Source of the DNA: Bacteroidales bacterium
GTDB taxonomy: Bacteria > Bacteroidota > Bacteroidia > Bacteroidales > Tenuifilaceae
NCBI GenBank assembly: GCA_008933525.1
Contig: WBUV01000006.1
Coordinates: 1 to 21,620, forward strand
Length of the DNA stretch: 21,620 nucleotides
Direction of reading: 5' to 3'
Made by a program: the position numbers and the translations under genes. The stretch's first letter is position 1. Each line of letters starts with the position of its first letter. This document shows positions 9,674 through 14,037 of the stretch, in pieces. The notes under the pieces were generated by a model. It had not been told where the DNA came from, ran no database searches, and saw only the letters and a program-made list of their open reading frames with translations.

Positions 9674-11059
9674 TTACTTTCTAAACTTCCTAATAAAATC
9701 CTCAACCTCCGGAACGCCTCCCTGATATATCAAATAACCATTGTACGGTTCGCGTTCAGTAATTTCGGAGTTTATTGGAGTTAACATTAATCGGCGAACC
9801 TCAGCAGGGTCGTTAGTTTGTCCAAGTGCCCAGCCCAGTTTAATATAGGCCGTTTCGGGGAGCATATTTTCCGCTGGAATAATGCCTTTGGCCATTAAAT
9901 CGCGACCAGTATCGTAAACATACATATGCGCGTAGCCCCAAAGCGTTTGAACGGTCATGTAGATGTGGACGCCTTTCTTTGTAGCACGCTCAATAGCCGG
10001 ATAAAGCGGTTTATTAATATGCCCCAATCCTGTTCCAGCAATGATAATTCCCTTGTAGCCATTATCAACCAACGAGTCAATAATATCGGGCTGCATATTG
10101 GGGTAATAGTATACAATTGTTACCTTCTCTTCAAAATATGGAAGAATCTTCGCTTTACGGTCTTTACGTCGATGATTGTAATTTTCAACAATAGGTTTAA
10201 CGCCATCCTTCCGGCTAACAGTTGCCAATGGTGTGTTGCCAATTGTGCGGAATGTACTGCGGTACGATGAGTGCATCTTACGTACACGTGTTCCTCGATG
10301 CAGAAATCCGTATTCGTCTGAAGTTGGACCAAACATACAAACCATAACCTCGGCAATATCGGAATGTCCGGCAGTGAGGGCTGCGTGCATTAGGTTTAAA
10401 GCGGCATCGCTACTGGGGCGGTCGGAGCTACGCTGCGAACCTACCAAGACAATAGGAACAGGCGGATTTTGCACCATAAAGGTTAGTGCGGCGGCTGTAT
10501 GGCTCAAGGTATCGGTACCGTGACCAATGATGATTCCATCAATACCGTTCTCAATCTCCTTACCAATAGCAATTGCAAGTGCTTTGTATTGCTCGGGGCC
10601 CATGTTCTCGCTGAATACTGCGAAAAGTTTCTCTGTGGATAGGTTGCAAATATCAGCTAACTCAGGAACGGCACCGTAAAGTTCTCCGGGTGAGAATGCC
10701 GGGATAACTGCACCTGTACGGTAATCGAGCCGCGATGCAATTGTTCCGCCAGTACCAAGCAGCTTAACTTTTGGCAAATTGGGCGTGAAAGGGAATTCCT
10801 TTTCCGGAATCTTGTAGGTTGCTTTGTAATAACCAACCTCTTTCATACTGGTAATCGTGAAAATATCGATACCCACGTTGTAGCCAGTATCAATTTTAAT
10901 TACGATATGGCAATCGTCGTCGTTCTCGGCGCGAGGCAGAACTGTACCTTTAAATTCACCACGGCTCGTTTCAACTACAGCCTTACCCCAAACCCTAACG
11001 TTGTACTTTTTTAGCACTTCCAGTGCTCGTCCTTTATATCCTTGAAAAATATCTTCCAT
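9674..11059 (-). CDS. gatD: Glutamyl-tRNA(Gln) amidotransferase subunit D, archaeal type
   Basis: A 461-residue glutaminase/asparaginase-fold subunit that should release ammonia from an amide donor and pass it to GatE for conversion of Glu-tRNA(Gln) to Gln-tRNA(Gln). The N-terminal 95 residues form the extra small beta domain of GatD (ALEVLKKYNVRVWGK, then a GTVLPR strand), which plain L-asparaginases lack. The asparaginase catalytic set is complete: T106 in GTGGTIAS, T182 and D183 in GHGTDT, K261 in RGTRVRKMHSS. SSDRPSSDA (211-219) is also conserved. Length and architecture fit archaeal GatD. It is the last gene of the gatE, barrel protein, gatD operon, 20 bases after the barrel gene stop. 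Simple cytosolic asparaginase is the alternative, but the N-terminal domain and nearby gatE argue against it. Confidence 0.93.
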   Translation of the reverse strand: MEDIFQGYKGRALEVLKKYNVRVWGKAVVETSRGEFKGTVLPRAENDDDCHIVIKIDTGYNVGIDIFTITSMKEVGYYKATYKIPEKEFPFTPNLPKVKLLGTGGTIASRLDYRTGAVIPAFSPGELYGAVPELADICNLSTEKLFAVFSENMGPEQYKALAIAIGKEIENGIDGIIIGHGTDTLSHTAAALTFMVQNPPVPIVLVGSQRSSDRPSSDAALNLMHAALTAGHSDIAEVMVCMFGPTSDEYGFLHRGTRVRKMHSSYRSTFRTIGNTPLATVSRKDGVKPIVENYNHRRKDRKAKILPYFEEKVTIVYYYPNMQPDIIDSLVDNGYKGIIIAGTGLGHINKPLYPAIERATKKGVHIYMTVQTLWGYAHMYVYDTGRDLMAKGIIPAENMLPETAYIKLGWALGQTNDPAEVRRLMLTPINSEITEREPYNGYLIYQGGVPEVEDFIRKFRK

Positions 11060-11079
11060 TTTACTCGTTTTTTATCTAT

Positions 11080-11649
11080 TTAAAATGAATAGCCAACACC
11101 TAAGCCAAATGCAGGTATAAACTTATTGTCGGATTTTAAATCCGAGAAAGTCTTAATCCGGATCAATGGAGTAAAACCGGCCCTTAAAAAGAATCCTCCT
11201 GATGGTTTCTGGTACTTATATCCTAATCTAGAAGACCATAGCAATCCTTTTACAGATTCGACATCAACCAACGAACTATTTCCTCCAAAGTCACCTAAGT
11301 AATCATACCCCGATTGCTGTAACCCAGAATTGTATGCCAACCCTGTACCTATCTCAAAAAAATGCTTTGTTTTTCCCATCGATAGATTTATGATTACTGG
11401 GATTCCTATTATTGGGTTCCAATTTTTAACTGAGGGGAAATAGCCAAATCCTAAAGTTAAATTGAGATGATAATTTGGCGTTAAATACAACACCCGATCA
11501 TAGTTTAAGTTAAAGACGGAACCACTAACTCCAATAAATTCAATGGACAAGATGTTTTTCTTGTAGTTCTTGTCAAAATCCTCTTGACCCTTCAACAAGT
11601 TAAATATTAAAAGGAGCGTTGATAGTACTATAACTTTTTTCAAATTCAT
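11080..11649 (-). CDS. Predicted outer-membrane beta-barrel protein inside the gatE-gatD operon
   Basis: A 189-residue protein with a signal peptide (residues 1-21, ending LLKGQ). The mature part consists of alternating, aromatic-rich strands such as NLTLGFGYFP, HFFEIGTGLAYN and GGFFLRAGFTPLI. It ends in GVGYSF; a C-terminal Phe is the usual signal for insertion of outer-membrane barrels by the BAM complex. The size suits an eight-stranded barrel. I cannot place it in a named family. Its ATG is 11 bases after the gatE stop and its stop is 20 bases before the gatD ATG, so it should be co-transcribed with both, although an envelope protein has no known link to tRNA amidation. Codon use looks A+T-rich; whether it differs from the flanking genes was not calculated. 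Confidence 0.72.
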   Translation of the reverse strand: MNLKKVIVLSTLLLIFNLLKGQEDFDKNYKKNILSIEFIGVSGSVFNLNYDRVLYLTPNYHLNLTLGFGYFPSVKNWNPIIGIPVIINLSMGKTKHFFEIGTGLAYNSGLQQSGYDYLGDFGGNSSLVDVESVKGLLWSSRLGYKYQKPSGGFFLRAGFTPLIRIKTFSDLKSDNKFIPAFGLGVGYSF

Positions 11650-11660
11650 AATGCGCAGAA

Positions 11661-13661
11661 TTAAGCATTTACCCTTTCCTCAATTCGCTTACGAAGCTCC
11701 TTTAAATCGGTATTACCCATAGCTTGTCGGTTTAGTTGTCCCATAACCCAATTCACCACAATATTAGGGTTATTGTCTTTTGTAACGCGAATCTCCTTGA
11801 ACTTCTCAATTAGATAGTCCACTGGAGCGGTTAACTCATCAACAGTACGCTTCTTAAAATTGATACTGGTAAGCACGGAGTTGAAGTCCATGTTAGGATG
11901 CTGGTAAATAACCGGAAGCATCAATTTTGATAGGGATTGATGTAGTTTTTGCTTTGAAAGAAAAGCAAACATCTCCACAATTCTACGATAACTAAAGTCC
12001 TTATGCATTGGAATATGCCCCTCAATGCACTTTAGGTTATGGCCAAGCAAAGTTCCCACAAACCTTGCGGAGAATCCCATGTTGGAAATCTCCTCAATTA
12101 TTGGAACTAAGTTGCGGCGCAATATAAAACGGTGCGTATCCTCTGGAATTCTCATATTGGCCAACTGCTGAAATCGCTGCCAGATATCAACCGGAAGATT
12201 TTCACTTAACTTTTTTATATACGAATCTTCCAATGGTATTGGAGCAGAATCTGTATCGGGGTACATACGGTCTGCTCCGGGTAGTACACGCTCAAAAAGC
12301 GTAGTACCATCGGCAAGCGGACGGCGTGTTTCGCGAGGAACTCCCTCAAATGCCATACGGCAACGCTCATCAATAACATCAAGCGCAGTTGGAATATCCT
12401 CCTTTGGTCCCCATATTAGCACTATTGCATCGTCGGCCGATGCCTTAAGCAACGATGCCAGTTTAACTGTATCCTGCTCAGATAATGGATTCACCAAATC
12501 CTCATCGCTGGTAATATTGGGTTTCTCAACGCAAGCAATAACCTTTAGCCTATCGCTTAGTTCATTGGTGAAACTCATTCCGGGCTGTGTAAAGTGCGAT
12601 AGAATGCCATGGAAAGCAGGCAGCGCAACTGCTACAAGTTTGTAGCCATTATCGGTATATTTCTGTGCAAGTTCGTGCTCAAGGTTATGCGAGTAAGCAT
12701 CAATCTCCATATGGCGTAAAGCCCAACTTGCCGTATTTGCAATACGCTCAAGTAGCATTTTGCGGATATTTAGCAATGCCCACTGACGGAAACACTCGTT
12801 ATGCGATAGCTCAGGCAACCACTTACTGTGCGATACACCCTTAATCTCAACACGCGTTCCGCCCTCGCAGCTAACGTTCGTATCCTGACGTGCTGCGCCA
12901 ATCCCAGTACGAACCTTTCCTGTGCTTCGGTTTAAGAATCGGATATAATCGCCTGCCTCGCGGAGTTCATCAGGAGTAAGACACTCTGGGTGAGTAACCG
13001 TTTCAATGAGCGGCATCCCCAAGCGGTCGGTTTTGTATATACGTTGATGCCCAATATCCGATATCTCACGGCAGGCATCCTCCTCAATACTAAGCTGTAT
13101 AAGGTTTATCTTCTTTTTCTTGAGTTGAAGTTCGCCCCCAACGCCAAGAATTGCTGTACGCTGAAACCCCGTTGGTATTGAACCATCCAAGTATTGCTTA
13201 CGGGTGATATGCACCTCGCCAACAATGCTCATTTTGCAAAGCAGCGATATCTCAAGCGCAATTTCCAACGCCTCTCGGTTAACGGGGAATGGCGGGGTAT
13301 CGTCAATCTCGTATGTACAGGTTGTTTTATTGTTGATGCGGTAAATAACCTCTTTTTTAGTTTTAAACTCCATTAGCGCAGTACCATCGTACTCGCCCAT
13401 CTCGCTCAGAGTTGGACGCATATGTCGAATAATTTCTGCGTGAAAATCTTCGTTCTCGTGGAAAATGCCCGCAGGGCAACGGCAGAATAGTTTTTTCTGT
13501 GTTTTAAGTTGCTGGTGCACTTCAAGACCTGACTTAAATCCAATCCGACGGTAATCCTCAGGAGTGGCGTTGCTACGGCGAACATAGCCAATAGCCTTCA
13601 TTGTAGCCAAATAATTTTTCTGGGGGTCGAATTGTTTAGGAGTGGTAGTTTTCTTGGCCAT
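11661..13661 (-). CDS. gatE: Glutamyl-tRNA(Gln) amidotransferase subunit E, archaeal type
   Basis: A 666-residue tRNA-binding and kinase/transamidase subunit. It activates the Glu of mischarged Glu-tRNA(Gln) with ATP and amidates it with ammonia from GatD. The GatB/E cradle is clear: SGLEVHQQL (44-52), KLFCRCP (57-63, likely metal ligands), RHMRPTLSEMGEYD, EIDDTPPFPVN, RKQYLDGSIPTGFQRT, SIEEDACRE, DRLGMPLIETVTHPE, GIGAARQDTNVS and TRVEIKGVSH. The AspRS-like (GAD) insert that separates GatE from GatB lies at about 340-445, followed by GVPRETRRPLADGT and PGADRMYPDTD, then the helical YqeY-like tail (about 500-655). It is roughly 35 residues longer at the N terminus than archaeal proteins I recall. 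The start is the first ATG, 33 bases from a good promoter. It heads the operon with the barrel gene and gatD. Confidence 0.94.
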   Translation of the reverse strand: MAKKTTTPKQFDPQKNYLATMKAIGYVRRSNATPEDYRRIGFKSGLEVHQQLKTQKKLFCRCPAGIFHENEDFHAEIIRHMRPTLSEMGEYDGTALMEFKTKKEVIYRINNKTTCTYEIDDTPPFPVNREALEIALEISLLCKMSIVGEVHITRKQYLDGSIPTGFQRTAILGVGGELQLKKKKINLIQLSIEEDACREISDIGHQRIYKTDRLGMPLIETVTHPECLTPDELREAGDYIRFLNRSTGKVRTGIGAARQDTNVSCEGGTRVEIKGVSHSKWLPELSHNECFRQWALLNIRKMLLERIANTASWALRHMEIDAYSHNLEHELAQKYTDNGYKLVAVALPAFHGILSHFTQPGMSFTNELSDRLKVIACVEKPNITSDEDLVNPLSEQDTVKLASLLKASADDAIVLIWGPKEDIPTALDVIDERCRMAFEGVPRETRRPLADGTTLFERVLPGADRMYPDTDSAPIPLEDSYIKKLSENLPVDIWQRFQQLANMRIPEDTHRFILRRNLVPIIEEISNMGFSARFVGTLLGHNLKCIEGHIPMHKDFSYRRIVEMFAFLSKQKLHQSLSKLMLPVIYQHPNMDFNSVLTSINFKKRTVDELTAPVDYLIEKFKEIRVTKDNNPNIVVNWVMGQLNRQAMGNTDLKELRKRIEERVNA

Positions 13662-13693
13662 TTTTAGAAAATCGGAAAAGGGTTAATGGGTTT

Positions 13694-13724
13694 TAAAGTT
13701 AGTTTTGTTTTCCGTTTTTCCAAA
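13694..13724 (-). promoter_or_regulatory. Promoter of the gatE operon
   Basis: On the minus strand TTTG (13721-13724) is followed by exactly 19 bases and then TAACTTTA (13694-13701), one mismatch from TAnnTTTG. This two-part arrangement is the Bacteroidota housekeeping promoter, and it stands 33 bases before the gatE ATG. It is the best two-element promoter I found in the window. Confidence 0.55.
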
Positions 13725-14037
13725 TGATTTTAGGAGTAAAAAGTTAAATGTGAGATAATAAGCCTTAGTTGGACATTTTCTATTAGATTTAAACGAGTGC
13801 TAATACCTTATGATAGTTCTCCCATATCTTTTAAGAAGAACCACTTATGAGGTATTTGACAATTTTGTGTCTATAAAATAAAGATATTTCACACAATGAG
13901 AAGCCCCTCTCAAAACTTCTCTACTTTAGGTAGATATGCTATAGAAGGCTTGGGGTTTAGTTGTAAGTAAGGGTTTAGGATTTCAACCACACTCTAGTTT
14001 TTGGTTTAGAAGGGATGCAAGATCCAAGTCAAGAAAA
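13725..14037. other. Gene-poor intergenic stretch with an imperfect hairpin
   Basis: No convincing gene lies between the gatE promoter and the next coding region. The main structure is an imperfect hairpin: 13802-13813 pairs with 13845-13856 over 12 positions (two G-T pairs), and inside it GTTCT (13816-13820) pairs with AGAAC (13837-13841). A weaker 6-bp hairpin is GAGAAG/CTTCTC (13898-13903, 13916-13921). Neither has a clear T tract. A 24-codon ORF at about 13896-13970 has no visible ribosome site or recognisable product. The stretch could hold a small RNA or a decayed element; the sequence does not decide. Confidence 0.4.

Follow-up and report, generated by a model that had tools for sequence, protein, structure and literature searches.

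Why would a bacterium that has a glutaminyl-tRNA synthetase (GlnRS) also carry GatDE, an amidotransferase known from archaea? The question is raised by a 21,620-nucleotide stretch of DNA from a Bacteroidales bacterium of the family Tenuifilaceae (contig WBUV01000006.1 of assembly GCA_008933525.1), referred to here as the window, in which genes for both subunits were found. A 2022 review places GatDE only in archaea, states that archaea have no GlnRS, and gives GatDE-adapted tRNA-Gln as the reason why archaea never adopted GlnRS (PMC9499178); a second review likewise restricts GatDE to archaea and describes it as serving Gln-tRNA(Gln) only (PMC8007984). Our best explanation, which we hold with evenly divided confidence, is that bacterial GatDE works as a second route beside GlnRS, amidating Glu-tRNA(Gln), mainly on a long-loop form of the tRNA. 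The two genes are as follows.

9674..11059, minus strand: gatD, 461 amino acids (aa); NCBIfam equivalogs over cut-off, Pfam GatD_N and Asparaginase domains, invariant residues
11661..13661, minus strand: gatE, 666 aa; NCBIfam equivalogs over cut-off, solved GatE structures 1zq1 and 2d6f, AlphaFold model

Both proteins scored over the curated NCBIfam equivalog cut-offs. GatD has the build that marks its family, an extra N-terminal domain (GatD_N) joined to an asparaginase-type amidase, and the catalytic residues T106, T182, D183 and K261 are present and invariant in the sequences compared. In GatE, the equivalog match and the modelled fold identify the family's full set of parts: a GatB-type cradle, an insert resembling that of aspartyl-tRNA synthetase (AspRS; the GAD domain) at about residues 310-443, a helical domain and a YqeY-like tail. 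The insert has diverged and falls below the Pfam cut-off. The AlphaFold model (mean predicted local distance difference test score, pLDDT, 87.7) matches solved archaeal GatE, with residues 36-661 aligning to 1zq1, and 80 GatE residues are invariant over 41 bacterial and archaeal-type sequences. The first-pass annotation of this DNA had proposed a complete GatDE with intact catalytic residues, and sequence and modelled structure confirm the pair as genuine, with a predicted activity.

The genes are under strong purifying selection and are not decaying. For gatD the ratio of nonsynonymous to synonymous substitution rates (dN/dS) was 0.0085 against the congener G001 and 0.008 against a second congener, G002; for gatE the two values were 0.042 and 0.035, and glnS gave 0.025 against G002. 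In 9/9 relatives compared, GatD shows higher conservation than either GlnRS or GluRS (glutamyl-tRNA synthetase); the conservation of GatE is below that of GlnRS in 8/9 and above that of GluRS in 2/9. Ratios so far below 1, together with the same pair in the single-contig genomes G002 and G017, speak against contamination or a decaying relic, an idea that the fragmented window assembly (G000; 543 contigs, 85% complete) invites and that we consider almost certainly wrong. Nor is the contig of archaeal origin: the pair is also found in other members of its family. Between G000 and G001 (window 9674-13661 against L056), dS is 0.72 for gatD and 0.30 for gatE, a more than twofold difference that suggests different histories or recombination.

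The described archaeal pathway operates where GlnRS is absent, and that absence is not what we find here. The window genome encodes a full-length GlnRS of 564 aa with HIGH and MSK motifs and, as its only GluRS type, a bacterial enzyme of 525 aa, both over their equivalog cut-offs. Reviews hold GatDE to be archaeal only, and full-length GlnRS accompanies it in 37 of the 40 GatE-positive bacterial genomes checked, the window genome included, a figure that covers these 40 and not the larger set of loci scanned below. No full-length GlnRS was seen in the other three, G032, G326 and G290; a 135-aa open frame in G290 gives only a partial match. GlnRS is also over cut-off in 13 of 15 GatE-negative genomes (in one of them, G024, interrupted by a TAG), lies in pieces in another, and is over cut-off in 23 of 28 further GatE-negative genomes; being common in both groups, it does not separate them. 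GatB was over cut-off in 18/40 GatE-positive genomes, and none was found over cut-off in the window genome (85% complete) or its 14 GatE-positive family members.

Because full-length GlnRS stands alongside, GatDE is not the sole route to Gln-tRNA(Gln) in the window genome or in the 37. The claim that GatDE is intact and in use for Gln-tRNA(Gln) synthesis therefore stands in part: strong selection favours use, and GlnRS removes the need. That GatDE should be a working and needed source of Gln-tRNA(Gln) draws on the same intact, strongly selected genes and may possibly be true in G326, which lacks GlnRS but has GatB as well; given the intact GlnRS of the window genome, and given that 21 of 40 genomes (the window genome and 39 relatives) do without GatE, 20 of these without GatB too, we think it very improbable. 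Nor can asparagine be its purpose, since the role described for GatDE is confined to Gln-tRNA(Gln) (PMC8007984). As had been anticipated, Asn-tRNA is supplied by another route: the window genome has an asparaginyl-tRNA synthetase (AsnRS), which passed its cut-off in 53 of the 55 genomes searched, so GatDE is not there for this product.

As to a non-discriminating GluRS partner, Arg358 is a residue of discriminating GluRS in Thermus; it was useless as a marker, occurring in all 25 GluRS examined (a set without G003 and G017), those of GlnRS-less genomes included. A second GluRS as partner was also rejected, as two full-length copies occurred only in G002 among 28 genomes. In that single-contig congener a tRNA-Glu(CUC) gene comes after the second full-length bacterial-type GluRS (L073:4750-6584), in the same orientation. 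Separately, GAD-domain AspRS was not found in G000 and was found in 14/14 control genomes; it probably lies on a missing contig of this 85% complete assembly.

GatE is widespread in the phylum. It occurs in 19 of 40 genomes, those of the window and its 39 relatives, if G032 with its gene broken across contigs is included; an even draw of 296 genomes from the phylum, window genome counted, gave 22. Scanning of species-representative genomes confirmed at least 543 GatE-like loci; among the best 80 of these, 77 are labelled Bacteroidota or a group within it, and the other three are L128 and L168 (Candidatus Neomarinimicrobiota) and L156 (uncultured bacterium). The GatE of L128 and L168 nests among those of Bacteroidales, which suggests mislabelling or transfer. 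Among the organisms named as carrying it are Tenuifilum thalassicum, Ancylomarina, Marinifilum, Labilibaculum, Perlabentimonas and Ignavibacterium. A survey showing GatDE to be both common and already documented throughout Bacteroidota would have told against the first-pass annotation; it is indeed common, and database entries for bacterial proteins already bear the name GatE, but no paper describing bacterial GatDE was found in the open-licence literature searched in full text.

In a GatE tree with GatB as outgroup, the 52 bacterial sequences group together in a single clade (support 1.0), and 14 archaeal or presumed archaeal sequences stand apart (0.992). The latter comprise six named archaeal proteins (from Pyrococcus, Palaeococcus and Methanocaldococcus), a Methanothermobacter fragment and seven presumed archaeal sequences, and this side is so narrow that the donor cannot be named. 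Bacteroidia, the class of the window, is largely separate from the other classes, among whose members is an Ignavibacterium; the Bacteroidia-type group has a support of 0.62 and takes in one genome of another class, G195. The topology fits the old inter-domain transfer proposed earlier, a single one from archaea, with descent, losses and some exchange thereafter. Left out of the tree was a GatE match with one in-frame TAA (G121:C87:3574-5436), possibly a recent loss or an assembly error; that genome also has GlnRS and GatB.

If GlnRS is present, what might GatDE act on? The tRNA-Gln genes fall into two bodies: in the long one the D loop has 8 nt and the variable loop 5 nt, in the short one 7 and 4 nt. 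The UUG isoacceptor is usually short, and the CUG isoacceptor is long in most GatE-positive genomes. In the sample of 296 genomes, 18/22 GatE-positive against 17/274 GatE-negative ones have the long CUG body (Fisher 9e-16), an association that persisted after stratification by family (p=0.0014). Within one family, f33, the counts were 8/8 and 2/8, and all eight GatE-negative members have GlnRS. Closer to the window, counting either anticodon in 34 of the 40 near genomes, the long body was present in 18/19 GatE-positive and 5/15 GatE-negative genomes, a count that takes in G036 (7-nt D loop, 5-nt variable loop); for the window's own family it was 14/15 against 3/8. One assignment to the long type, that of G009, was made by eye.

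Shared ancestry was addressed with a correlated-evolution model on a 63-genome GlnRS tree, used as a stand-in for the species tree; genomes without GlnRS or without a GlnRS sequence in hand, G053, G290, G326 and G032 among them, were left out. The correlated model was preferred (likelihood ratio 13.9, 4 degrees of freedom, p=0.0075). With G015, G094, G219, G191 and G179 dropped the ratio was 13.2, and 0/108 simulations under independence, of 200 planned, gave one as large; dropping G094 and G219 favours the association, because both have GatE and no long-loop tRNA. GatE thus tracks the long tRNA-Gln body, though not strictly, and a strict coupling was rejected (G021 and others).

The long body also turns up where transamidation is obligatory. 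Four of the five GatE-negative genomes lacking GlnRS, of 28 searched, have the long CUG tRNA (G043, G167, G279 and G310), and the GatE-positive, GlnRS-less G326 and G032 have the long body too; since GlnRS-less genomes must transamidate, it is compatible with that process. All 17 GatE-negative genomes of the phylum sample with a long CUG body gave sub-cutoff matches to the GatE model, like GatB bearers. As to the searches themselves, a loose pattern for the UUG tRNA was discarded, as it gave many chance matches and control counts were similar in several genomes; six regions sharing a recurrent match to it all proved to be tRNA-Gln(UUG) (6/6). In G000 (L001:3210-3283), G001 (L240) and G011 (L253) the T stem of the tRNA-Gln(CUG) encoded behind glnS contains a T-T mismatch; in most other relatives listed this stem is fully paired or has a wobble pair.

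Based on these patterns, a second route beside GlnRS might run as follows. GluRS would charge some tRNA-Gln with glutamate; GatD, by the chemistry of its family, would release ammonia from glutamine; and GatE would activate and then amidate the Glu-tRNA(Gln). The preferred substrate would likely be the long body, usually the CUG isoacceptor; GlnRS would charge the short body, usually UUG, and is probably able to handle both. In line with this, archaeal GatDE is reported to contact the tRNA D loop (PMC9499178, PMC4810234), through its tail domain (PMC4810234). The strongest form of this scheme, in which two glutamine routes in one cytoplasm are split by isoacceptor, long-loop CUG (CAG-reading) by way of glutamate and GatDE and UUG directly by GlnRS, is speculative, and we consider it rather unlikely.

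Several observations weigh against a GatDE route directed at the long body. By one account, GatDE chooses the smaller D loop, that of tRNA-Gln, in preference to the one in tRNA-Glu (PMC4810234), whereas among the tRNA-Gln bodies GatE is linked to the one whose D loop is larger. In G026 the usual pairing is reversed, with CUG on the short body and UUG on the long. The tRNA-Gln(CUG) gene lies directly behind glnS in 15/23 genomes of the window's family, GatE-positive and GatE-negative alike. Without the fragmentary G015 and G018, the GatE-negative count in this family becomes 3/6 (p=0.053). Only 47/63 tips of the tree have GatE and tRNA body in agreement. No long-loop tRNA-Gln was detected in the GatE-positive G021, G053, G094, G219 and G290, although some genomes so scored may have escaped the search pattern. 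Conversely, G004, G006, G010, G029 and G030, the five of 15 GatE-negative relatives counted above, keep the long body with neither GatE nor GatB, so GlnRS alone is able to charge it. With G003, a more distant relative, the ratios are higher, dN/dS being 0.036 for gatD and 0.100 for gatE with dS near-saturated (>2). Finally, the tRNA hypothesis arose after part of the same data had been seen.

In a plainer scheme, GatDE is a general backup that cleans up any mistaken Glu-tRNA(Gln) without isoacceptor preference, and the tRNA-body link reflects shared ancestry. The coexistence with GlnRS, the occurrence of long-loop tRNA without GatE and the frequent gain or loss of GatE (18 parsimony changes over 63 tips) all suit such a role. 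Survival of the association through family stratification and the correlated-evolution test does not, and we see the backup role as possible but on the unlikely side. Less probable again, and in our view improbable, is repurposing, whereby GatDE would amidate or hydrolyse something besides Glu-tRNA(Gln). With GlnRS present the usual role is unnecessary, and all 68 of 68 tRNA-Gln examined have U1-A72 instead of the A1-U72 reported for archaeal tRNA-Gln (PMC9499178); set against this, GatE retains its cradle, its insert, its helical domain and its tail, the invariant GatE residues noted above extend to archaeal-type sequences, and GatE is linked to a type of tRNA-Gln. An additional route to Gln-tRNA(Gln) alongside GlnRS remains our preferred reading.

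In all 17 relatives in which the region was read, gatD is the next ORF (open reading frame) after gatE; in the window the two are one ORF apart, separated by an unrelated frame. The subunits are thus encoded together, adjacent in the relatives and nearly so in the window. The remaining features are these.

11080..11649, minus strand: ORF of 189 aa, its start resembling a signal peptide; PagL-like match below threshold (E value 0.06)
13662..13740, minus strand: leader upstream of gatE with a TTTG-N19-TAACTTTA promoter-like motif, read from sequence

The small ORF, outer-membrane-like in character, is absent from this position in 17/17 relatives read. The leader block is near-identical in congeners G001 and G002, and the motif, which is similar to the Bacteroidota promoter consensus, is partly kept in G007. 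An Rfam search of the window gave no family at threshold. The neighbouring genes (LolC/E-like, RNase H-like, aminotransferase) were uninformative as a functional clue, being common to part of the family only.

GatDE is intact and strongly conserved in many Bacteroidota, and mostly found beside GlnRS. Tenuifilum, Marinifilum and Labilibaculum offer a natural setting in which to ask why both routes are kept and whether isoacceptors are divided between them. Compared with archaeal GatDE (Pyrococcus abyssi 1zq1, Methanothermobacter 2d6f), the window pair has the same full-length subunits, domains and catalytic residues; it differs in residing in a GlnRS-bearing bacterium with U1-A72 tRNA-Gln, in its diverged GAD insert and in belonging to its own clade. 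A transamidase retained despite direct-charging enzymes has a parallel in GatCAB, reported beside GlnRS and AsnRS in Deinococcus, Thermus and Bdellovibrio (PMC4206432), although GatDE is a different enzyme and no GatB was over cut-off in the 15 GatE-positive members of the window's family. In Acidithiobacillus ferrooxidans, with GluRS1 and GluRS2, GluRS1 glutamylates tRNA-Gln(CUG) and not UUG (PMC3927822), and the isoacceptor-specific misglutamylation of tRNA-Gln(CUG) that we propose would resemble this; that organism is listed with GatCAB and without GlnRS (PMC3927822), whereas GatDE in Bacteroidota occurs with GlnRS.

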